In this document: one piece after another, positions 1,436 through 17,706 of the stretch
Layout of the letters: each line of letters opens with the position of its first letter
How positions within the stretch are numbered: position 1 is the stretch's first letter
Assembly: GCF_021442025.1 (NCBI RefSeq)
Contig: NZ_CP090446.1
Span: 1,302,001 to 1,366,000, forward strand
Length of the DNA: 64,000 nucleotides
Direction: 5' to 3'
Source: Sphingobacterium sp. SRCM116780
GTDB lineage: Bacteria > Bacteroidota > Bacteroidia > Sphingobacteriales > Sphingobacteriaceae
Position numbers and translations under genes: made by a program
Notes under the pieces: model-generated
Databases searched by the model: none
The model's input: the letters and a program-made list of their open reading frames with translations, nothing else
What the model was told of the DNA's origin: nothing

Positions 1436-2023
1436 CTATATTGAATTTACAGGTGTACCTACTATTTTAAGCCATCCATACATAGGTTCTTTTGTTAAAC
1501 GATGGAATCCAACTTGAAATGCACTTTCATTTTTTTCAAAAATAAGTTCATAACCATTGAAAGAACCATCATCCTCATCGAATTCATGCTGTGAAAGCTG
1601 AGTGACTCTTGTTGGCATCAATATATCTTCATTTCTGCAAAGACAGATGTGCTGCTTTGAAGCAATTTCAGCGTCTATTAATGAAGAGAATACCAAGTGT
1701 AGAACTGGTTCTAATAAAATACCCCTTACTAAAATAGCTTTTGGTCTTTCAAAAAGTATTTGCTTTCCTCTTTTGGTGGAATTCCAACCTCTTGTTTGAA
1801 TAACTTCTTGTTGTTGACTTATTTGAGAATAGGATAACCTATGTCTCATAATTTTTTTTATACCAACTTCGTTCAATAATTCTGGAAATATTTTTTTTTC
1901 AATTCCTTCTACAATACTTGGCGTTAGGAATTGTTGTGAAAATGTTTCACTATCTCTTACTGCAGTCCAAGGTTTGATAAAACCAAATTGACCTGTATAT
2001 TTTACAACAAAATATTTTTCCAT
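1436..2023 (-). CDS. cas5: CRISPR-associated protein Cas5 (small RAMP subunit of Cascade)
   Basis: A 195-residue protein whose N-terminus (VKYTGQFGFIKPWTAVRD, then SQQFLTPSIVEGIEK) fits Cas5: a beta strand, a glycine/phenylalanine turn and the Ser-Ile-Xaa-Gly-Ile helix. The C-terminus (EPMYGWLKIVGTPV) also suits a RAMP fold. Cas5 caps the 5' handle of crRNA in Cascade. Its stop codon abuts the cas3 start and it follows cas6 by 7 bases, so the three are one transcription unit. The Cas5p or Cas5t branches used by Bacteroidota I-B systems are the likely relatives, but the subtype is inferred, not seen. It is shorter than many Cas5 proteins. Confidence 0.72.
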   Translation of the reverse strand: MEKYFVVKYTGQFGFIKPWTAVRDSETFSQQFLTPSIVEGIEKKIFPELLNEVGIKKIMRHRLSYSQISQQQEVIQTRGWNSTKRGKQILFERPKAILVRGILLEPVLHLVFSSLIDAEIASKQHICLCRNEDILMPTRVTQLSQHEFDEDDGSFNGYELIFEKNESAFQVGFHRLTKEPMYGWLKIVGTPVNSI

Positions 2024-2030
2024 TTTAATA

Positions 2031-2690
2031 TTATTTTAATGCTCCAAAGCCAATTCCTGTAGATTCACCTAATCCTACCAACCAAGTGAAAGCTATTTGT
2101 TCAGGTGATCCTTCGATAATTATAGGTGCAAGGGTAGTTTTGTTATTTACTCCCTTATAATTAATTAGTTTCGTTTTTGGAGAAGTATAATTTTTGTCAA
2201 AGAAAACTCTGATACCTTCAGAACTTAAATCAGCATGTTTTAATTTATTTTTAATATTTTCAGTTAGTAATTGATCAAAGTCCCAATCTTCGTATGTCAC
2301 ATGCTTTGATGTGCCATTTTCTTTTTTTCTAAGTAGAATAGGGCTACTTAACAAGAATCTTTCAGATGAATTGAATTGAGGTGTTTCAACGATTTGAACA
2401 TCAATAATAGAGATTCCATAAAAAAGAGTTGGTGATTTTAAAATGCCACTAAGCATTTTTTTTATTAATTCCGTACTATAGGAGCTTATAAAAAAATATG
2501 ATCCATTTTTAGTATGGATTCCTGATTTTGAAGTGGTTGTGTTCTGAAGCCACGAGAAAGAATAAATACTTGTCTTTCCGTGTTCGGTATTATCTTTTCC
2601 TAACCAATTATTAATTGAACTCGTTAATAAATGTTGATAGTTGAAAGGGATTGGATCTTTTGATCCTGAAAGTTTTAAATATAATCTCAT
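2031..2690 (-). CDS. cas6: CRISPR RNA endonuclease Cas6
   Basis: A 219-residue protein that cuts pre-crRNA within the repeat. Two hallmarks are visible: the N-terminal strand-loop-helix with IPFNYQHLLTSSINNWLG, and the C-terminal glycine-rich loop GLGESTGIGFGALK at the very end, the Cas6 signature. A His in the YQH segment near residue 20 could be catalytic, which is inference. This is the first gene of the minus-strand cas operon. In most I-B operons cas8b and cas7 come next; here cas5 follows after 7 bases, so those genes are either elsewhere (beyond cas3) or missing. Confidence 0.88.
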   Translation of the reverse strand: MRLYLKLSGSKDPIPFNYQHLLTSSINNWLGKDNTEHGKTSIYSFSWLQNTTTSKSGIHTKNGSYFFISSYSTELIKKMLSGILKSPTLFYGISIIDVQIVETPQFNSSERFLLSSPILLRKKENGTSKHVTYEDWDFDQLLTENIKNKLKHADLSSEGIRVFFDKNYTSPKTKLINYKGVNNKTTLAPIIIEGSPEQIAFTWLVGLGESTGIGFGALK

Positions 2691-3408: not shown

Positions 3409-3804
3409 CTAACTCTTCCCTTTATTACTTTTGCTCTTAGTTTCTTCCTCTGCCACGACGATTTCTACGATTTCGGAGTCAGATAATTTAGAAGCAGTAC
3501 CATCTGCTTTTAATTTAGGAACTTTTTTATAGCGAATTTTAATCAATTCATCTTCAGGTAAACCATTCGGAAAGAAATCATTGAGACCTTTTACATTAAA
3601 AACAGCGCTGAGTATAACAAGGTGTCTCAAATTGTATTTTTCAGGTTGCTCTATGGATTCGCATTTACCTACAAAAGTTTCAGCAAAGCCCATTTTATCA
3701 CTTAGTACCGTTTGCGACCAACCGTTTTCTAAGCGGAGTTCTTTTACTTTTTTAATCAATTCGTATTCAATCCTATAAATAGACTTCGATTCAAAAATTT
3801 CCAT
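3409..3804 (-). CDS. XRE-family helix-turn-helix transcriptional regulator
   Basis: A 131-residue protein. The N-terminal half holds an HTH_3/XRE DNA-binding domain: residues 14-35 read ELIKKVKELRLENGWSQTVL, followed by SDKMGFAETFVGKCE and the late helix LRHLVILSAVFNV. The C-terminus is charged and probably disordered (EEETKSKSNKGKS). Its start codon is 18 bases from a perfect 18-bp palindrome that also overlaps the -33 box of a divergent promoter, so it likely represses both itself and the divergent transcript. It is transcribed in the same direction as the cas genes but separated from them by about 720 bases. Whether it controls the cas operon is open. Confidence 0.82.
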   Translation of the reverse strand: MEIFESKSIYRIEYELIKKVKELRLENGWSQTVLSDKMGFAETFVGKCESIEQPEKYNLRHLVILSAVFNVKGLNDFFPNGLPEDELIKIRYKKVPKLKADGTASKLSDSEIVEIVVAEEETKSKSNKGKS

Positions 3805-3821
3805 GTGTATATAAAATTATT

Positions 3822-3839
3822 CTACCAAATATTTGGTAG
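3822..3839. promoter_or_regulatory. Perfect 18-bp palindrome, probable operator of the XRE regulator
   Basis: CTACCAAATATTTGGTAG equals its own reverse complement. It lies 18 bases upstream of the XRE start codon and covers the -33 TTTG of a plus-strand promoter. This is the normal place for a dimeric XRE repressor site; the binding itself is inferred. Confidence 0.7.
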
Positions 3840-3863
3840 TATTAAATTGATTTATTATATTTG
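3832..3863 (+). promoter_or_regulatory. Bacteroidota-type promoter reading away from the XRE gene
   Basis: TTTG at 3832-3835, then 20 bases, then TATATTTG at 3856-3863, which matches TAnnTTTG exactly. This is the primary sigma consensus of Bacteroidota with ideal spacing. Transcription would start near 3870 and enter the structured leader and the 36-codon ORF. Confidence 0.65.
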
Positions 3864-4009
3864 TTTATTATTTAGCGACAAATAGAGTAGGAGAATATCT
3901 CCAGATCTAAACGATGTCACTTACGAACAGAAACCGTCAAATTCGCCTCGTAAGATGATTCGGAGTTCGCTTTTCATTGAATTTTTGTATTATTGCAACA
4001 TAATTCAGT

Positions 4010-4100
4010 GGAGCGGACTTCATTTCAGTCTTCGTGGCAGTTAACCTTCGGTTAACGCGGTTCTTGACGGTACCATGTGCGAAGCTTTGAAGTCCGCTCC
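4010..4100 (+). repeat. Inverted repeat with nested hairpin, probable structured RNA leader
   Basis: GGAGCGGACTTCA (4010-4022) is the exact reverse complement of TGAAGTCCGCTCC (4088-4100). Inside it CTTCG (4029-4033) can pair with CGAAG (4080-4084), and GTTAACC-ttc-GGTTAAC (4040-4056) is a perfect 7-bp hairpin with a 3-nt loop. The element is richer in G+C than its surroundings. It lies downstream of the strong promoter at 3832-3863, so it would be transcribed as a leader or small RNA. It does not match any RNA family I recognise. Confidence 0.6.
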
Positions 4101-4169
4101 TTTGATTCTATCTAAGAAGCCTTCCTCACAGTTAAGTTGTCATCGTTTTCATAAAACCAATTAAAAATT

Positions 4170-4280
4170 ATGAAGACAATACAAACAATCAGAAATACAT
4201 CAACAAATTTGATCAATGATCGAAGTGTTGATTTTATCCATTTAAACTTAACAAGCAACCACATCCGCGCACCAAGCTGA
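4170..4280 (+). CDS. Possible small peptide gene, 36 residues
   Basis: ATG at 4170 opens a 36-codon frame (beginning MKTIQTIRNTSTNLIND, ending NHIRAPS) closed by TGA at 4278. It is the first decent frame after the structured leader and the XRE-controlled promoter. The peptide has no signal sequence or membrane helix and is rich in Asn, Thr and Ser. I do not recognise it. It could be a regulatory or substrate peptide, or chance; only its position speaks for it. Confidence 0.3.
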   Translation: MKTIQTIRNTSTNLINDRSVDFIHLNLTSNHIRAPS

Positions 4281-4418
4281 TGATGATAAAAACACTAAAA
4301 CCAAATTAAAAGGACGGTTATAGATCAGTATTAATCTAGCTACATACTCTATTTATGACTAAACGTTGATGCGGTTTTGCCGGCTTGTATTAATTTTTAC
4401 AATTCCCCCGTTTTTTGA

Positions 4419-4479
4419 TATACCCCCTTTATACCTGAGCTATACTCCAGTTATACTCTCGTATATCCGTGTTATACCC
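4419..4479. repeat. Six TATAC/TATAT units with 11-bp period
   Basis: Units start at 4419, 4430, 4441, 4452, 4462 and 4473: TATACCCCC, TATACCTGA, TATACTCCA, TATACTCTC, TATATCCGT, TATACCCGA. Spacing is 11, 11, 11, 10 and 11 bases, close to one turn of DNA, so all units face one side of the helix. Because 11 is not a multiple of three, the repeat is not coding. It could be a multi-site binding array, iteron-like; nothing shows which protein. Confidence 0.7.
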
Positions 4480-4712
4480 GACTGCTAATGCTATCTTGAC
4501 ACATAAAACTAGCAAATATAATGATACTATCAAAAAACAGTTGTAAAATTAAGCTTATTGCATCGCGATAAGACAAGTCGGTTTTTAGTATTTATCGCTG
4601 ATGTCCGTGACGAAAACCATATAGATAACCTGTGACCCTAACACTAAAACGGCATCTGATTGAATGAATTTATTTTATTGACCGAGTGATCTAAGGCTTG
4701 CTGTAGACCCCT

Positions 4713-4784: not shown

Positions 4785-5624
4785 ATGAACAATTTTATTA
4801 AGGGTGGGAGAGTACATGCCTTTTTTCAGGAACTTTTCTGCCAAGCGAAAACTAAAAGCAATCCAGATGCTAAAAAACAAGAAAAATCTGTTGAAATACT
4901 TCGAGACTGCCTTGTGGCTGTTCGACGCGTTCCTGAAGATCAGTCGAAGATGTATCAACGTGAAGTTGAAGTACGCCCGGTCCAGTCTGGAACAAAAGAC
5001 GAAGCAGCGTCGAAGACGAGCTTAACAATTATCGAAGCGGAGCGTAACAAATTTCACGGAATCGGTAGAATTACTAGGGCAGAGCGTCTTTCAAGGTACT
5101 TTTCTTGGACTTGCTTTACACCAACTTCTAACCTTCCTCGGACTAACTTCGAGCGCCCAACGCTTTTACACAGCTCTTGCACCACCCTTTTACCACAGTT
5201 GGCTCGGGAAAACAGCGGTGCAACAGCGATAAAACAGCGGTCCAGTTGTAAAGAAACTCCGAAGTTGGTTAGAAGAAAGTGCGAAGAGAGTCCGAATATG
5301 GTATCTATTCTGTTTATCGTTTTTCAGCAATTTTTCGGAAAAATTCGCAATTTGAGTAACTGCAAAAGTGTATGCTTCAGCTACCACAGGAATACTAGAG
5401 TAACACCTAGAAAAGAGGATAAAACTACTCAATTGCTACCGTATGAGTGCCCAAGAATTACTCCATTGAACAGAGAGGAGATACTTAAACTCTTGCTAAA
5501 AAATGGAGGGTCTGCAAAGCGCTTATCTAAGTGGTCAAACTTTTTGAGACGGCTATCTGCCTACTTTGAGTACGATCGTCTGTGTAGAGGCTTTAAAAAT
5601 GTCTTCATTGAGAGGGTGAGAGGT
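4785..5624 (+). other. 840-nt open frame upstream of and in frame with the TlpA-like gene, coding status doubtful
   Basis: From ATG 4785 the frame stays open into the thioredoxin gene, which would give a 548-residue protein with a 280-residue N-terminal extension. The extension has no recognisable domain, is rich in Arg, Lys, Ser and Cys, and would place the obvious signal peptide of the TlpA protein in mid-chain. A second frame is open from 4804 to 5025 and, after its stop, continues with protein-like sequence to about 5240. The segment looks less AT-rich than its surroundings. It may be a decayed gene, a conserved non-coding leader or a real unknown gene in another frame; I cannot decide. 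Confidence 0.4.
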
Positions 5625-6431
5625 ATGAAGGATGGTGGTACTTTGAGAACTATTGCTTTGCATCCAATCATCCGTTTTTTTAAGACGTTGAACTATAGCA
5701 TCCTGCTTTTTACCTGCCTTGCTGTATGTCCTATCATTCGTTTGTCAGCTCAGGAGCCCCGCAAGGACAGCGGGGTGAATGGGTTAACTTTTCAATTGGA
5801 CAATTACATTGATTTTAAGTTTGATCAAGCTTTGACCGATAAGGTTAAAATAGAGCATCCAACAATCGATTTTAAGCAATTCCCAGTCAAATGGTACAAG
5901 ATAAAAGAAGGAAAGATCAAAAGCATTTCTGTAGGCAATCAAATACCTGATTCAATCCTCAACATACCTATTTGGGTCGTCAATGACTCTCTGGGTAGAG
6001 AAATGTTAACACTCCGAGAACTGTCCTTTAAAAAATTTATTGTTCTTGACTTTTGGGCACGATGGTGTAGTCCTTGTTTAAAATCAGTTGATCATTGGGA
6101 AGAAATTCACGACGCTGTCAAAGCGGATATCGCGGTACTTCCCGTTAATATTGACTTTGATTTTTGGGCTTTGAAATATGCCAAGGATAGGAAATGGAAA
6201 AATACACAAGTGATAGGTCCTGCAGGCTATTTTTTTGCACAGTATTTTTTAGGACAAGCCTTGGTTGGACCCAATGTTTGGATAAAAGACGGGCGTCTCT
6301 TTGGCGTGACAAAAGCTAGCCAAAGTTCCTATGCATTTATCAACCTCTTGCGTTCGGGTAAAATAGATGAATTGCCTGTAGAAACAAGGTATCCTTCTGT
6401 TTATAGTAATAGTTCAAATAATAGTAATTAA
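5625..6431 (+). CDS. TlpA-like thioredoxin-family protein of a SusCD operon
   Basis: Start taken at ATG 5625 because it places a hydrophobic signal segment (LNYSILLFTCLAVCPIIRLSAQ) at the N-terminus of a 268-residue exported protein. The C-terminal half is a thioredoxin fold with the redox motif WARWCSPC, preceded by a typical TlpA/AhpC lead-in (SLGREMLTLRELSFKKFIVLD) and followed by VLPVNIDFDFWALKYAKDR. Proteins of this kind are periplasmic thiol-disulfide oxidoreductases often encoded beside RagA/SusC pairs. Its TAA overlaps the ATG of susC by one base (TAATG), so the two are translationally coupled. The substrate is unknown. Confidence 0.8.
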   Translation: MKDGGTLRTIALHPIIRFFKTLNYSILLFTCLAVCPIIRLSAQEPRKDSGVNGLTFQLDNYIDFKFDQALTDKVKIEHPTIDFKQFPVKWYKIKEGKIKSISVGNQIPDSILNIPIWVVNDSLGREMLTLRELSFKKFIVLDFWARWCSPCLKSVDHWEEIHDAVKADIAVLPVNIDFDFWALKYAKDRKWKNTQVIGPAGYFFAQYFLGQALVGPNVWIKDGRLFGVTKASQSSYAFINLLRSGKIDELPVETRYPSVYSNSSNNSN

Positions 6432-9400
6432 TGATATTGATTATGATATATTTATATTATTTTTTAAGTAAAGAAAATACTTGGATTATTTTCTTTGCAG
6501 TTCTCCTGCAATTGTCTACTTTTTCGGTATCCTACAGCCAAGAAAAGACTGTCTTTCGAGGACAGGTTCGGTCTTCTTTGGATGGTACTGCTGTCATGAA
6601 CGCCTCCATTAAATTGAAAAATAATACACTGATCGTACAAACAGATGATAACGGAAATTTTGAATTCAAAAGTCAGCGAGACACGGGAACTCTTGTGCTG
6701 CAACATCTCCAATATCATATTAAAGAAGTTCATTTTGATTCGTATAAAAAGTTTTTAGCGATACAGCTAGATCCTAGAGAAAATGCATTGGAAGAAGTTC
6801 AGGTTTACAACACAGGTTATTACTCAATTCCAAAAGAAAGAGCGACGGGTTCGTATGAATTAGTAGATAGAAAACAATTGAATCAATCTCTTTCAAGTAA
6901 TCTATTGAGCCGATTAGAAGGCTTGACTGGTGCGTTGTCCTTTGATCGAAGAACAGCTATAACGAAGGAATCCTCGAATGAACAGCTGAATCTTCGGTTA
7001 AGAGGAGTGAGTACTATTATGAGTAATGCACAACCTTTGATCATTGTCAATAACTTTCCATTTGATGGTGATATTGCAGATATCAATCCAAACGATGTCG
7101 AGTCTTTGGTATTTTTAAAAGACGCAGCATCTGCAGCCATTTGGGGGGCAAAATCGGGTAATGGTGTTATTGTGATCCAACTGAAAACGGCTAAGAATGA
7201 GACGGCACGATCCATACAGTTTTCCTATAGCAATCGTATAGGGGGTAAACCTGATGTATTTAACGGGAACAGGTTCATTTCTTCTCCTGACTTTATGGAA
7301 CTGGAAAAAGAACTATTCCAAAAAAGCTATTTTAAAGAAAATAATACGACGCTACTTTCTCCTTATGTCTATCTTTTGTTTCAGCATCAGAAAGGTTTGA
7401 TTGATGATGAAATCTTAGACAGACAAACTAGACTACTGGCATCCACGGATATCAGAAAAGATGCATCGCAATATCTATATCAAAATTCGATAGCTAAAAT
7501 AGCGAATCTTTCGCTAAGTGGTGGGGGTAAATCGCATGGTTATTTCTTGTCATTTGGGTATGACCATTCCCGTTTTGCGTTAAAAGGAAATGAAGATGTC
7601 CGTTATTCGTTTCGGGCAGATCATTCCTTTCAGTTTACACCAAAGCTTTCAGCACAGATTACAACCGATTATATCATCCGTAAGGAGCGCACAAATGCGG
7701 TTTCGATGTATGATCAATCAGGGATAGTGCCCGCTGATAAATTGATGATCTATCCGTATGCCTCATTGATCAATACAGATGGTTCATACCAGACGATGCC
7801 TATTGCTTTTAGTCCTTTTTATATCCATGATTTTATGCAAACCACTGGACGTGATTGGCTGTTTAACCCATTGCAGGAGTTGGAACTAAGAGATCAGACG
7901 AATACAAACAATGCGCTTCGATTTTTATCAAGTTTGAAATATAAACCTATAGACGGTCTGACACTTTCACTCCAATATAATTATAATCTGAGCAATGGAG
8001 CAAAGCAAAATTACTATGATAAAAATAGTTATTACGCTCGAAATCTGATCAATAGATACATGCAGTTAAATGGAGCATTTATTGTTCCAGATGGTAACAT
8101 ACGCCATGCACAAACAGATCAGACTGTAAAACACACGGGACGGTTCCAGATGGATTATCATAAAACACTTGTCAATGATTTGGTTTTGACAACACTGATC
8201 GGTGCTGAACTGAGTGAAAACAAAGCAACTATAGAGCCGAACCAAATCCTTTACAATTTTAATGACGATACCTTCATCGGGCTTACGGCACTGGATTATA
8301 CAACCTATTTCCCTGTTCGTCCAGAAGGAAGTGCACGTATTCCGGTCTCAGGTAGTCAAGTTTTTGAATTGACAGATCGGTTTATATCGTATTACGGCTT
8401 GGGTTCTTTGAATTGGAAACAACGGTATTTGCTTACAGGTAGTTTACGTTGGGATGCTTCCAATTTGTTTGGTGTAAAGACCAATCAAAAAGGTGTACCG
8501 TTGTGGTCTATTGGCACTTCTTGGTTGATCCATCGAGAAAGCTTTGCGCAATCACTGCCCTTTACTGAATTGAAACTGCGTGCTACTGTAGGTGAAAATG
8601 GTAATATCAATAAGAATGCATCCGCTTTTCCAACGGCAGCCTTTACCATAGGAAGTATGACAAGACTGCAAGAGGCACTTTTGAAAACTGCCGGAAATCC
8701 ACAGCTGAAATGGGAACGTGTGCGTACCTGGAATCTAGGACTTGACTGGGCAGTACACAGGAATACGTTGGGTGGAAGCATCGATATTTTTGAGAAAGAT
8801 TGTTATGACCTTTTGGGTTATAAAAATGCAGATCCTACGACAGGGATTAATCCTGCTGTGGGCGGAGTAAAGGAGATGATCAATTATGGACAGTTTCAAA
8901 GTCGGGGAATCGATATAAACCTCTATTGGCGACAGGTGAAGCTAGGTACTTTGTTCCTGAACGCTGATCTAAAAATAAGTAAAAATTGGAATAAGGTCAT
9001 CGATTATGATATAAAACCTACTACGATTTTAGACTATTTTCAATATATCGTACCAGCAACTTCTGGGAAATCTAGGGATATCTTATACGCATTTCCTTGG
9101 TATGGTCTAGATGCTGAAACGGGGAGTCCATTGGTCTCAGATGGTACACAACTCGGCACGACCTATGGTTCCCATGTTTCTAGTTTTGATTACGAAAAAC
9201 TGTTACAAGTGGGTAATAGTTTTCCGCTATGGAATGGCTCCTTTCGAAATGAATGGGTATATAACAATATTTCGCTGAGCTTTTTGTTCACGTGGAAAGG
9301 TGCCTATCAATTTAGACGCAGTTCGGTTAATTATCAGGAATTAATGGAGAAATGGAATATGCATACTGATTATCATAACCGTTGGCAAAAGAAAGGAGAT

Positions 9401-9694
9401 GAGTTGACCACGAATGTGCCTTCTGTCCCTACCGTGTTGGACAGCAATCGGGAAAATTACTATTCGAATTCGGAAATCTTAATTGAAGATGGGGATCATA
9501 TCCGACTGCAAAGTATCAACCTGAACTATAGATTACCCTTGGCTAAAAAATCCATTAAAATAGAAATAATTGCAGTAGCTGAAAATCTGGGTATGATCTG
9601 GCGTAAGAATAAATTGGGTATTGATCCCGAGTACCATTTGAACTATTATATGCCTCCTAAGCAATTTACGGTAGGATTACGGACACAATTTTAA
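6431..9694 (+). CDS. SusC/RagA-family TonB-linked outer membrane receptor
   Basis: A 1087-residue outer membrane transporter. Order of parts: signal peptide (WIIFFAVLLQLSTFSVSYSQ), a carboxypeptidase-D-regulatory-like beta domain at about 40-115 (FRGQVRSSLDGTAVMNASI), a plug with LRLRGVSTIM and NDVESLVFLKDAASAAIWG, then a 22-strand-type barrel ending in VGLRTQF. The usual plug motif YGSRAANG reads WGAKSGNG here, so this is a divergent member. It imports a ligand bound by the SusD partner encoded 10 bases downstream. The TlpA gene upstream suggests a peptide or protein-derived ligand rather than glycan, by analogy only. Confidence 0.93.
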   Translation: MILIMIYLYYFLSKENTWIIFFAVLLQLSTFSVSYSQEKTVFRGQVRSSLDGTAVMNASIKLKNNTLIVQTDDNGNFEFKSQRDTGTLVLQHLQYHIKEVHFDSYKKFLAIQLDPRENALEEVQVYNTGYYSIPKERATGSYELVDRKQLNQSLSSNLLSRLEGLTGALSFDRRTAITKESSNEQLNLRLRGVSTIMSNAQPLIIVNNFPFDGDIADINPNDVESLVFLKDAASAAIWGAKSGNGVIVIQLKTAKNETARSIQFSYSNRIGGKPDVFNGNRFISSPDFMELEKELFQKSYFKENNTTLLSPYVYLLFQHQKGLIDDEILDRQTRLLASTDIRKDASQYLYQNSIAKIANLSLSGGGKSHGYFLSFGYDHSRFALKGNEDVRYSFRADHSFQFTPKLSAQITTDYIIRKERTNAVSMYDQSGIVPADKLMIYPYASLINTDGSYQTMPIAFSPFYIHDFMQTTGRDWLFNPLQELELRDQTNTNNALRFLSSLKYKPIDGLTLSLQYNYNLSNGAKQNYYDKNSYYARNLINRYMQLNGAFIVPDGNIRHAQTDQTVKHTGRFQMDYHKTLVNDLVLTTLIGAELSENKATIEPNQILYNFNDDTFIGLTALDYTTYFPVRPEGSARIPVSGSQVFELTDRFISYYGLGSLNWKQRYLLTGSLRWDASNLFGVKTNQKGVPLWSIGTSWLIHRESFAQSLPFTELKLRATVGENGNINKNASAFPTAAFTIGSMTRLQEALLKTAGNPQLKWERVRTWNLGLDWAVHRNTLGGSIDIFEKDCYDLLGYKNADPTTGINPAVGGVKEMINYGQFQSRGIDINLYWRQVKLGTLFLNADLKISKNWNKVIDYDIKPTTILDYFQYIVPATSGKSRDILYAFPWYGLDAETGSPLVSDGTQLGTTYGSHVSSFDYEKLLQVGNSFPLWNGSFRNEWVYNNISLSFLFTWKGAYQFRRSSVNYQELMEKWNMHTDYHNRWQKKGDELTTNVPSVPTVLDSNRENYYSNSEILIEDGDHIRLQSINLNYRLPLAKKSIKIEIIAVAENLGMIWRKNKLGIDPEYHLNYYMPPKQFTVGLRTQF

Positions 9695-9704
9695 TCGAAA
9701 TAGT

Positions 9705-11072
9705 ATGAAAAAGATATTTATAATTTTTACAACCATCAGTTTTTTCTGCTGTGGATGTGCAGCAGATTTTCTAGATGTAAAACCTGCGAAGAATTTGGTT
9801 GTTCTTTCCTCCATAACTGATTATCAAGCATTGATGGATAGAGTCAGCATCTTGAATGAAAAAACATCGCAAGAGTTGGCTATTATGTCCATTGATGATT
9901 ATTATTTATTATCGGACACATGGAAGTTTTTGAGCTCTTCTACTCAACGTAATGCCTATATATGGAAAGCGGATGTGTTTGAAGGCGAACAATCACGCGA
10001 TTGGGACAATGGCTATGAACGTATATTTTACGCCAACACGGCATTAGAAGGTTTGGCTAAAATAGCGCCATCTAAAGATGAAGAGCAGCTCTGGAAAAAT
10101 GTAAAAGCAAGAGCGTTATTTCATAGGGCTTGGAACCACTATAACCTCATGATGTTGTTTGGCGATTATACAGGAAGTATAGATGGAGCAGGAAAAGGAA
10201 TACCGCTACGTAAGGCATCAGATATTAATATTCCTGTAACAAGAAGTACATCCTCGGAAACGTTCACTTTTATTATCGATGACCTAAAAAATGCTGTTCA
10301 ACTGTTTGATAATAGTACTTACCATATCGAACGACCAACCAAGTATAGTGCTTTTGGGTTATTGGCAAAAATATATCTCTATCTGCAGGACTATGAAACT
10401 GCTTTTAAATATGCGCAGTTAACCATGGAAGGGAATTATAAGTTAATTGACTTCAATACATTGGATCGGAATAAATCATTTCCATTTCCTTCGTATGGGG
10501 TAGGGAATACAGAAATAGTTTTTAATGCCTGGTTGCCAACTGTTGCTTCGTTTGCACAGACTCGGTTATGTGTGGATACCGACCTTTTATCTCTGTATGA
10601 TAATCATGATCTTCGTCGAACGGTCTATTTTAAAAATAATACGACGGGACAAGTGACGTTTAAGGGAAGTTATGTCGGAAGTTCGTTATTATTTACAGGC
10701 ATTTCTATGAATGAAATTTACCTGATCGCAATGGAATCAGCGGTAAGGATAAATAAATTGAATCTAGCTCTTGAACTATACAATAAATTGCGCGTGAACA
10801 GATTTGCACAAAATCATTATCAACATGAGACGACAGTAGATAAGAATATATTACTGAATTTGATTTGGAAAGAGAAAAGACGAGAATTGGTTATGCGCGC
10901 TTCGCGTTGGGAAGATTTGAAAAGATTAAACAAATCTGGAGAACATCCTATTACATTGCAGCGTATTATTGAAGGAGTAACTTATAAGCTGACTCCTCAT
11001 GATGCTAAATATGTGATGCCAATTCCTGACTACGTGGTCAATATGTCGAAGATAGATCAAAATCCAAGATAA
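9705..11072 (+). CDS. SusD/RagB-family outer membrane lipoprotein
   Basis: A 455-residue ligand-binding partner of the preceding SusC. The N-terminus is a lipoprotein signal with cysteines in CCGCAADFLDVKP; one becomes the lipidated residue. SusD landmarks are visible: ARALFHRAWNHYNLMMLFGDY, KYSAFGLLAKIYLYLQDYE (TPR-like region), NEIYLIAMESAVRINKLNLALELYNKLRVNRF, and the C-terminal WKEKRRELVMRASRWEDLKRLN. The length is usual for the family. It ends just before a strong hairpin terminator, so it closes the TlpA-SusC-SusD operon. Nothing nearby (no glycoside hydrolase) names a polysaccharide substrate. Confidence 0.93.
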   Translation: MKKIFIIFTTISFFCCGCAADFLDVKPAKNLVVLSSITDYQALMDRVSILNEKTSQELAIMSIDDYYLLSDTWKFLSSSTQRNAYIWKADVFEGEQSRDWDNGYERIFYANTALEGLAKIAPSKDEEQLWKNVKARALFHRAWNHYNLMMLFGDYTGSIDGAGKGIPLRKASDINIPVTRSTSSETFTFIIDDLKNAVQLFDNSTYHIERPTKYSAFGLLAKIYLYLQDYETAFKYAQLTMEGNYKLIDFNTLDRNKSFPFPSYGVGNTEIVFNAWLPTVASFAQTRLCVDTDLLSLYDNHDLRRTVYFKNNTTGQVTFKGSYVGSSLLFTGISMNEIYLIAMESAVRINKLNLALELYNKLRVNRFAQNHYQHETTVDKNILLNLIWKEKRRELVMRASRWEDLKRLNKSGEHPITLQRIIEGVTYKLTPHDAKYVMPIPDYVVNMSKIDQNPR

Positions 11073-14475: not shown

Positions 14476-14557
14476 TTTGTTGTCTGTTTTATACAATGTC
14501 TGTCGGTGTTTTGAGCTTTATATCCAGTTGGGAAATGTAACGTGGACAAATGGCTTG

Positions 14558-15001
14558 TTATTGCTTATACCATTCCTCATCTTCTTTCCATTCATGACTA
14601 CCCAGTTTTTTAAATAAATGTGCTGTCAGTTCCACTTCACCATTTTTGCTTACAGTGAACGTCTTTTTCTCCCATTCTGTAATTGGATCCATTCTTTTTT
14701 GAAAATGCTGTGTTGTGATTATAATTTTATTACCTTGGACTTTCAATCTTTCTTCATCCCAAAAGAGATTATTGCAGTCGCCTCCTTCATCTTTGTAAGC
14801 ATAGTAGGTGAGGACCAATTTTTCTTTTCCATTTGCTTTGATGTAAAGTTCCCTTGCATCATCTTTGCTTTCCCATTCATTGTTTACTTTTTTATTTTTA
14901 ATGATGAATGTTTGATTGCTGACTTTGAATATCTTGGTCTGCCCAAAGACAATGCTGAAAGACGTTAGGATAAGAAATAGAAATGCTGCTTTTATTTTCA
15001 T
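14558..15001 (-). CDS. Small secreted protein of unknown function
   Basis: 147 residues with a clean signal peptide (MKIKAAFLFLILTSFSIVFG, cut before QTK). The mature part is beta-rich and charged (Lys/Glu), with one CNN and repeated aromatic-Lys patterns, consistent with a small beta-barrel or lipocalin-like fold; no family is recognised. A paired direct repeat followed by a -7-like box lies upstream (15068-15135), suggesting activator control. A broken copy of its 3' end together with its upstream region lies at 17544-17706. Confidence 0.62.
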   Translation of the reverse strand: MKIKAAFLFLILTSFSIVFGQTKIFKVSNQTFIIKNKKVNNEWESKDDARELYIKANGKEKLVLTYYAYKDEGGDCNNLFWDEERLKVQGNKIIITTQHFQKRMDPITEWEKKTFTVSKNGEVELTAHLFKKLGSHEWKEDEEWYKQ

Positions 15002-15067
15002 ACTCTTTACCCAGTGAATTTTTGTTTGATGCTATTGTATTCCATTTTATAATACCGTATTCTATTT

Positions 15068-15135
15068 CTAAAATAAAAATCCTTTCACATTGCATATAAA
15101 ACCATTTACAATTCGCAGGGTTGGTTTACGATTCG
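15068..15135 (-). promoter_or_regulatory. Paired 12-bp direct repeat with -7 box, copy A
   Basis: On the minus strand CGAATCGTAAAC (15135-15124) and CGAATTGTAAAT (15115-15104) are 20 bases apart start to start. After 28 bases comes TATTTTAG (15075-15068), a weak TAnnTTTG. Two further copies of the same arrangement occur at 17733 and 19991. Two-turn direct repeats upstream of a promoter are the usual form of LytTR-family activator sites; the regulator is not identified. Confidence 0.65.
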
Positions 15136-15188
15136 TGTTTGAAAAAAGAAACGATACAGGCATCAGATTTTAAAACGTATAGATTGTC

Positions 15189-16019
15189 TTAGCCTGTAGA
15201 GTTCTTTTGTATATATGCTGATATTGGTTTTATCAATATATTGTTATCGGAGAGTTTTTGAATGACTTCATTATTGAGTTCTTCTTCCGAAAGTTCTAGA
15301 AATAAATGAGTCTGTGGGATTTCAATATATCTGACAGAAAATATATCCATTTGCTCTTTTAGTATGTTGTACCTTTTGTCATTTTCTCTTACAAATCCTT
15401 GAGGAACTTTGTTTGGAGTGAGCCATATCCAACTATCTTTGTATTTACTTCTATAGTTTGCATAGCCACTGTTAAAATAGTCTGGTTCATCAAACTTAAT
15501 TTGTAGTACAGCTTCAATTTGTTTTGATACATCTTCAATTGAGCTTTCTGTTTCAATGACTAGTTCATTTTCTACATCCAGTTCTAGAAGTGCTAAAAAT
15601 GCTGCAAATGAATCTGCAATATCTTCTTGGTTATCACATTCTACATCAATCCAAGACACTTTTGGTTGTTGTTTATCTTTTCTATAATCCAAACAGATAT
15701 ACCAATGTCCGTCTCCATCTATTGGCACGAGTCCGTCAAGTTCAAAACTGACATATTCTTTTAGTTCTTCTCAATCAAAATCTGTTAAAGAGGGGAAGTA
15801 AGGGCCAATTCCCATTATTTGTTCATGAGGGGTTTCGGAAAGTTTATAACGAACATATCCACCGTTCTGAATTTTTAGTATATCGACCAATTCTTTTGGA
15901 AGTTTGTAGCCAATCTGCTTTTCCGCATTTGCTAAAATTTCATCTGTCAATTGAGGTTGTACGTAAGGTAAATAACTGGGTACTCTCCAAATATTTTTTT
16001 TGTGCTCTTCTTGTGTCAT
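15189..16019 (-). pseudogene. SMI1/KNR4 (SUKH) family protein interrupted by an in-frame TGA
   Basis: Read through, this is a 276-codon gene of the SUKH superfamily: the N-terminal KQIGYKLPKELVDILKIQNGG, then SLTDFD, TGA at 15773-15771, EELKEYVSFELDGLVPIDGDG, HWYICLDYR and IDVECDNQEDIADSFAAFLALL. Family members carry Trp at the stop position (DFDWEE), so a single TGG-to-TGA change explains it. The downstream part has only a GTG start at 15728. SUKH proteins often act as immunity proteins against contact-dependent toxins, but no toxin is nearby. The start overlaps the end of the DinB-like gene by 4 bases. Confidence 0.8.
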
Positions 16020-17384: not shown

Positions 17385-17543
17385 TATATTTGATTTTTCG
17401 TATCCTGATCCTATAAAGAAATTGCTAAAACCCTCTCAGATACTATTACGTACGACTGCATGCTTACTTTTGTTGTTTTCGAGTATTTATGTACATGCGC
17501 AATCCTCTGTACTTAATTTAACGATGGAGCACATGGATAAAAA
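17385..17543 (+). pseudogene. Decayed 5' end of a SusC-type receptor gene (relic 1)
   Basis: A TATATTTG promoter box (17385-17392) precedes a frame from 17413 whose start is ATA instead of ATG. It encodes a signal peptide (ACLLLLFSSIYVHAQS) and SSVLNLTMEHM, the opening of an STN domain as in SusC proteins. The sequence then breaks off into an unrelated 3' fragment at 17544. It aligns over about 110 bases with relic 2 at 25317. The rest of the gene is gone. Confidence 0.7.
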
Positions 17544-17706
17544 AGCTTGTTATTGCTTATAATACTCCTCATCTTTTTTCCATTCATGACTGCCCTGTTT
17601 TTTAAATAGATGTGCATTGCATATAAAATCATTTACAATTCGTGTTTGAAAAAATGAAGCATACAGGCATCAGGTTTTAAAACGTATAGATTGTTTTAGC
17701 CTATAG
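17544..17706 (-). pseudogene. Truncated duplicate of the 14558-15201 segment
   Basis: 17544-17615 aligns gap-free with 14552-14623, the 3' end of the small secreted gene. From 17616 on the sequence aligns with 15089-15201, the upstream region of that gene plus the last codons of the SUKH gene. So 465 bases are missing inside. A further 20 bases are lost exactly between the two halves of the paired repeat (one half-site remains at 17631-17642). Divergence of several percent shows an old event. Confidence 0.82.

Follow-up and report, generated by a model that had tools for sequence, protein, structure and literature searches.

The window, the whole 64,000-nucleotide stretch analysed here, belongs to a genome of one 4.28-Mb contig. 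In its left part, a divergent regulator gene, a promoter, a structured RNA and a small open reading frame (ORF) lie between the end of a CRISPR-Cas locus and an operon of the SusC/SusD type. The main features are:

1436–2690, minus strand: cas5 and cas6, the right-hand end of a type I-B CRISPR-Cas locus continuing to the left beyond the window
3409–3804, minus strand: divergent regulator gene (131 aa, family c6, Cro/C1-type HTH)
3822–3839: operator, a perfect 18-bp palindrome CTACCAAATATTTGGTAG
3832–3863, plus strand: Bacteroidota promoter TTTG-20-TATATTTG, predicted start at about 3870
3911–4146, plus strand: structured RNA domain closed by helix P1 (ACGATG 3911–3916 / CATCGT 4141–4146)
4170–4280, plus strand: small ORF of 36 codons ending in NHIRAPS-stop, a conserved leader peptide
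4785–6431, plus strand: first operon gene (548 aa), thioredoxin (TlpA-like) domain in the C-terminal part
6431–9694, plus strand: SusC-like TonB-dependent receptor
9705–11072, plus strand: SusD-like lipoprotein

The operator overlaps the −33 box of the promoter. The latter consists of TTTG (3832–3835), 20 bases and TATATTTG (3856–3863) and points rightward. An earlier sequence-only reading had described the palindrome over the −33 box, the promoter reading away from the regulator and the regulator facing it, and all three are found as described. One operator copy with at most three mismatches is present in the window, compared with 0.05 expected. The next long ORF begins only at 4785, in agreement with the earlier remark that ordinary genes are absent nearby.

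The ORF at 4785–6431 has a putative start and an unusually long N-terminal part for which no Pfam match was obtained. The sequence CCCGCAAGGACAGCGGG (window 5758–5774; also at the second leader copy, L003) encodes part of a recurring A-Q-T-P-R-K-D-S-G segment; at many loci this segment follows the putative signal peptide of genes early in the operon. Only two copies of CCCGCAAGGACAGCGGG are present in the genome, both behind the leader. Further downstream, the regions 14548–15199 and 17540–17706 contain two direct-repeat pairs of about 75 nt (88–89% identical).

The folded RNA and the small ORF

The structured RNA spans positions 3910–4152. Besides P1, it contains the following helices, all on the plus strand:

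3920–3954: P2 hairpin (3920–3925 / 3949–3954), crossing P3 and P4, with covariation
3933–4071: P3 (ACCGTCAA 3933–3940 / TTGACGGT 4064–4071), with covariation
3927–3929 / 4076–4078: P3 extension
3964–4019: P5 hairpin (3964–3970 / 4013–4019; 3974–3981 / 4004–4011)
4005–4105: alternative helix P8 (4005–4022 / 4088–4105)
4030–4084: P6 pseudoknot (CTTCG 4030–4034 / CGAAG 4080–4084)

The folding energy of 3870–4170 is 5.5 standard deviations below that of shuffled sequences. In 31 homologous sequences the proposed pairs are formed in 92.7% of 1563 cells, and 31 of the 51 pairs show compensatory changes, compared with a mean of 20.7 for shuffles and 9–12 for slid structures. P2 is paired in 97.8% with five of its six pairs changed on both sides. 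The two P3 helices are paired in 85.5% and 98.4%, with nine pairs changed on both sides. For P8 97.6% of the cells are paired and eight of 16 pairs are doubly changed. Compensatory changes were not found in P1. Judged from the sequence evidence, this settles that the RNA is real. The structured leader of the earlier reading is confirmed, its proposed check of relatives for covariation or conservation had a positive outcome, and its 13-bp inverted repeat corresponds to P8, extended to 18 nt with 89% complementarity.

P2 and P6 cross the nested helices and the RNA is therefore pseudoknotted or passes through mutually exclusive states; two pseudoknots are supported. The arm common to P5 and P8, the left one of P8, carries 61 off-consensus bases, of which 52 keep P5 and 57 keep P8. 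The retention of both helices at this arm suggests a switch. A conserved, covarying domain with mutually exclusive pairings, as found here, is one criterion for a riboswitch. Rfam scans identified no family; the sole match, to tmRNA (12.2 bits, cut-off 47), lies outside the RNA. No earlier description was found in Rfam or in the open-licence papers searched, and the term "undescribed" in the earlier reading holds to this extent.

An ORF of 25–60 codons ending in Pro-X-stop follows the RNA at 76 of the 83 loci examined in detail, which were drawn from search matches with close relatives counted more than once, so that these and the following counts do not represent a random sample. Such an ORF occurs in 2% of shuffled sequences and on the opposite strand at three of the 83 loci. 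The usual end of the peptide is L-K-N-(V/I)-I-(R/C)-(A/S/P)-P-(E/S/T/D)-stop. The penultimate Pro is encoded by CCA (34), CCT (15), CCC (16) and CCG (11), all three stop codons are used, Asn occupies position −7 in 64 of the 76 peptides, and position −4 is Arg in 34 and Cys in 22. The ORFs were picked by their Pro, which is therefore bound to be invariant among them. Independent of this selection are the spread of its codons, Asn at −7 and the recovery at 76 of 83 loci. A constraint on the C-terminus, as these features indicate, is the pattern of arrest peptides, and the comparison of loci settles that a conserved peptide of about 36 residues is real. The 36-codon frame pointed out earlier is a member of this group. 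Inspection by eye also showed, at many loci, a short hairpin with a three-base loop inside the small ORF, the stem of which changes in step (for example TACCTC-AAG-GAGGTA and TGATC-AAG-GATCA).

Two further pairings flank the small ORF, both on the plus strand:

4145–4177: hairpin pairing the start codon of the small ORF (4145–4154 / 4168–4177)
4380–4586: attenuator-like helix (CCGGCTTGT 4380–4388 / ACAAGTCGG 4573–4581) followed by TTTTT (4582–4586)

In 67 of the 76 local folds the AUG pairs with sequence upstream of it; the corresponding figures are 78 of 204 for gene starts and 234 of 498 for random ATGs. The pairing motif ACGA occurs in one reading phase at 32 loci and in another at 29, and is therefore kept as RNA and not as codons. 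P1 and the hairpin compete, since the 3' arm of P1 reaches into the hairpin. The distal helix (CCGACNNN...NNNGTCGG plus T-run) is located between the small ORF and the operon at 31 of 76 loci, counted with one strict pattern and a search that itself demanded TTT. Its inner positions covary and it spans about 155 nt (202 nt in the window, where the segment folds 4.2 standard deviations below shuffles, z −4.2). Pedobacter loci have other terminator-like hairpins. The loop of the helix in the window contains a TATACC-rich tract (4415–4490), which is missing from the second genomic copy.

Exchangeable regulators and flanking genes

The RNA is not confined to this genome. A DNA search of 120 relatives gave matches in 31 genomes, and a covariance model of the RNA detected it in 96 of the 301 Sphingobacteriaceae genomes (nine of 25 genera) but in only six of the 395 from the class. 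Copies with high scores also occur in Flavobacteriaceae (Allomuricauda with 178 bits, Sinomicrobium, Galbibacter, Flagellimonas and Salegentibacter) and suggest horizontal transfer. The second copy in the present genome (L003; 2525230–2525789, minus strand) is 70% identical to the leader in the window. It has a regulator of family c7 with a thermonuclease-like gene behind it, and on the front side only a truncated first gene and no SusCD.

A divergent regulator is present at 79 of the 83 loci, its start about 100 nt ahead of the RNA core, which bears out the facing regulator as a general feature. Seven sequence families take in 76 of the 79 regulators. Five families have representatives with matches to Cro/C1-type or HTH_37 models; for the representatives of families c3 and c13 no Pfam match was found. 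The c6 regulator of the window itself matches HTH_3 below threshold (E 0.0076), and a homologue from the same family clears the cut-offs of HTH_3 and HTH_26. Two other loci with a homologous regulator have the near-identical operator CTACCATATATTTGGTAG.

Tested one by one for palindromes, only 18 of the 77 operator regions were significant in this AT-rich DNA, and the regulator families were therefore compared with one another instead. Similarity of the operator region is 0.69 within and 0.61 between families, and an operator identity of at least 0.8 is reached by 68 of 341 within-family pairs but only by 21 of 2179 between-family pairs. The identity of the RNA, in contrast, is about equal within (0.71) and between (0.70) families. 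None of 1000 label permutations reached the association of operator and regulator family. These sequence comparisons settle that the operator over the −33 box changes together with the regulator family, the RNA staying constant.

In this genome a complete type I-B CRISPR-Cas system with about 75 repeats occupies the slot behind the regulator, and the distance from the regulator gene to cas6 is 718 bp. The CRISPR array beside the cas genes is located left of the window (L230, 5950–10707, a 24-mer occurring 75 times). Across the loci, 148 left-flank proteins match 422 PADLOC families, compared with 135 matched by 146 proteins from control regions, which were chosen by hand rather than randomly elsewhere in related genomes. 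The top Pfam families of the left flank are HNH, AAA_15, GmrSD, putAbiC, YhcG and SRA. Individual slots contain, for example, a retron reverse transcriptase, a type II REase, GmrSD or AriA-like proteins, as well as proteins lacking any match; some hold ordinary genes such as those for 5'-nucleotidase and LptF. The reverse transcriptase in the left slot of L048 (4467–5540) matches retron type III-A models. The slot is enriched in anti-phage families in the manner of a defence island. A tie to defence, offered only tentatively in the sequence-only reading, is firmer than was dared there, since the excess of defence genes behind the regulator is found across loci.

On the other side of the RNA, the first or second proteins downstream, 119 in all, include 53 with a match to the TonB plug and up to 27 with one to a thioredoxin-like family. 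Conserved positions are also found around the start of the first operon gene. At a few loci, among them L003, L163, L130 and L154, the RNA and the peptide occur without SusCD downstream. The arrangement exceeds chance and recurs across the 83 loci. RNA and peptide are nearly always placed between the regulator and defence side and, usually, an uptake operon.

Possible working and alternatives

On balance, regulator, folded RNA and possible arrest peptide probably form a cis-acting leader that controls SusCD and is wired to defence. The grounds are the RNA fold, the peptide, the joint exchange of regulator and operator, the defence-rich slot and the association with SusCD, all taken from comparative sequence data; from these we infer transcription, the direction of control, pausing or arrest, attenuation and the coupling to defence. 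The divergent HTH regulator would bind the palindrome over the −33 box and set the transcription of a leader, about 0.9 kb long, which continues into the TlpA/SusC/SusD operon. The first 240 nt of the leader would fold, with pseudoknots, into alternative states that compete. When P1 is formed, it would hold the sequence that can otherwise pair with the AUG of the 36-codon ORF, and the AUG would be free; in the alternative state the AUG would be covered. Translation of the small ORF and pausing of the ribosome at Pro-X-stop would then decide whether the attenuator-like helix forms, and this in turn whether SusCD is made. SusCD output would be tied to the defence state because the regulator heads an anti-phage slot and is exchanged together with its operator.

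The earlier proposal of a free small RNA or a stand-alone peptide is not supported in that form, as RNA and ORF begin a leader of about 0.9 kb before the TlpA/SusC/SusD operon. This position at the 5' end of the leader in most loci makes a cis-acting leader likelier. A stand-alone transcript, small RNA and/or micropeptide, that is ended by the distal terminator and merely has SusCD as a frequent neighbour is unlikely. It would explain why RNA and peptide are kept at some loci lacking SusCD, and it suits the RNA's own promoter and the terminator-like helix, but it does not account for the TonB-receptor matches of 53 of the 119 same-strand proteins downstream or for conservation around the first-gene start. 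Improbable too is a metabolite riboswitch that binds a small ligand, for example one imported by SusCD, with the small ORF only as expression platform. The pseudoknotted domain, the alternative pairings beside the start codon and the uptake operon downstream would suit it; the amino-acid constraint on the peptide C-terminus exceeds the needs of a platform, however, and no ligand can be named.

The defence genes behind the regulator and the swapping of regulator-operator units over a constant RNA could also mean that the RNA itself serves defence. It would be produced when the cell is infected, under control of the regulator, and work in trans; the peptide would be an effector or an alarm. This is very unlikely given the SusCD association and the occurrence of the same RNA beside whichever defence system is present; by the latter, the RNA is not part of any single one. 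Both flanks vary around a constant block, as expected for a DNA anchor for recombination of defence cassettes on the left and SusCD cassettes on the right. Such an anchor would need no compensatory changes, pseudoknots or coding constraint on a peptide, and as the main role of the block it is highly improbable.

Most likely among the functional readings, judged from the compared loci, is the leader controlling SusCD. It is possible, albeit doubtful, that whichever defence locus is present commands the surface-receptor operon, exchangeable cassettes docking onto a constant RNA and peptide. If so, the cell would alter an outer-membrane receptor, a possible entry site for phages, once its intracellular defence is switched on. 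The joint change of regulator and operator, with the RNA unchanged, predicts that expression of the receptor is co-regulated with the state of defence. The Bacteroidota gain a large RNA family with strong covariation as well as a conserved micropeptide, and the locus offers a testable physical link between phage defence and a SusCD uptake operon.

Comparison with known systems

Leader-peptide attenuators and riboswitch-type leaders use alternative helices, a covered start codon and a terminator-like helix before the operon. Elements of these kinds are predicted here, the terminator-like helix with the strict motif at 31 of 76 loci; an Rfam match is lacking, regulator and operator are exchanged together and defence genes lie behind them. 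In the SusC/SusD shufflons of Bacteroides, silent cassettes have a common junction sequence. One leader before varied SusCD genes resembles this situation, here across genomes. A shufflon was nevertheless rejected: the conserved junction sequence is present only at the two leader copies of the genome and, therefore, no silent cassettes with that site are seen. SusC paralogues were likewise rejected as silent copies, the nearest being 35% and 31% identical.

Structured RNA motifs of Bacteroidota include Pedo-repair (RF01715), Flavo-1 (RF01705) and Bacteroid-trp (RF01692) (PMC2864571). The RNA described here is likewise a structured RNA of Bacteroidota, and one of those motifs comes from Pedobacter; they are Rfam families, whereas the present RNA has no match in the Rfam scans.

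An earlier report of leader peptides before SusC was not found in the open-licence papers searched. Upstream-ORF arrest peptides of the RAPP/RGPP type include ApdA, ApdP and CruR (PMC10951233, PMC12992588), for which the arrest mechanism has been described (PMC10951233). The peptide has about 36 residues, no localisation segment by eye and a large conserved RNA fold ahead, in contrast to these. In the 76 ORFs R/C-A/S/P-P-X-stop is conserved and not an R-A/G-P-P string near the C-terminus; Arg is not invariant and the second Pro is missing (e.g. RAP-E-stop or RAP-S-stop), for which reason the peptide is not filed as RAPP. It resembles them in its constrained C-terminus, with a Pro closing an R-A-P-like motif. 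Genes for TonB-dependent receptors and thioredoxin-domain proteins are listed behind RAPP/RGPP ORFs (PMC12992588), and the small ORF described here precedes genes of the same kinds.
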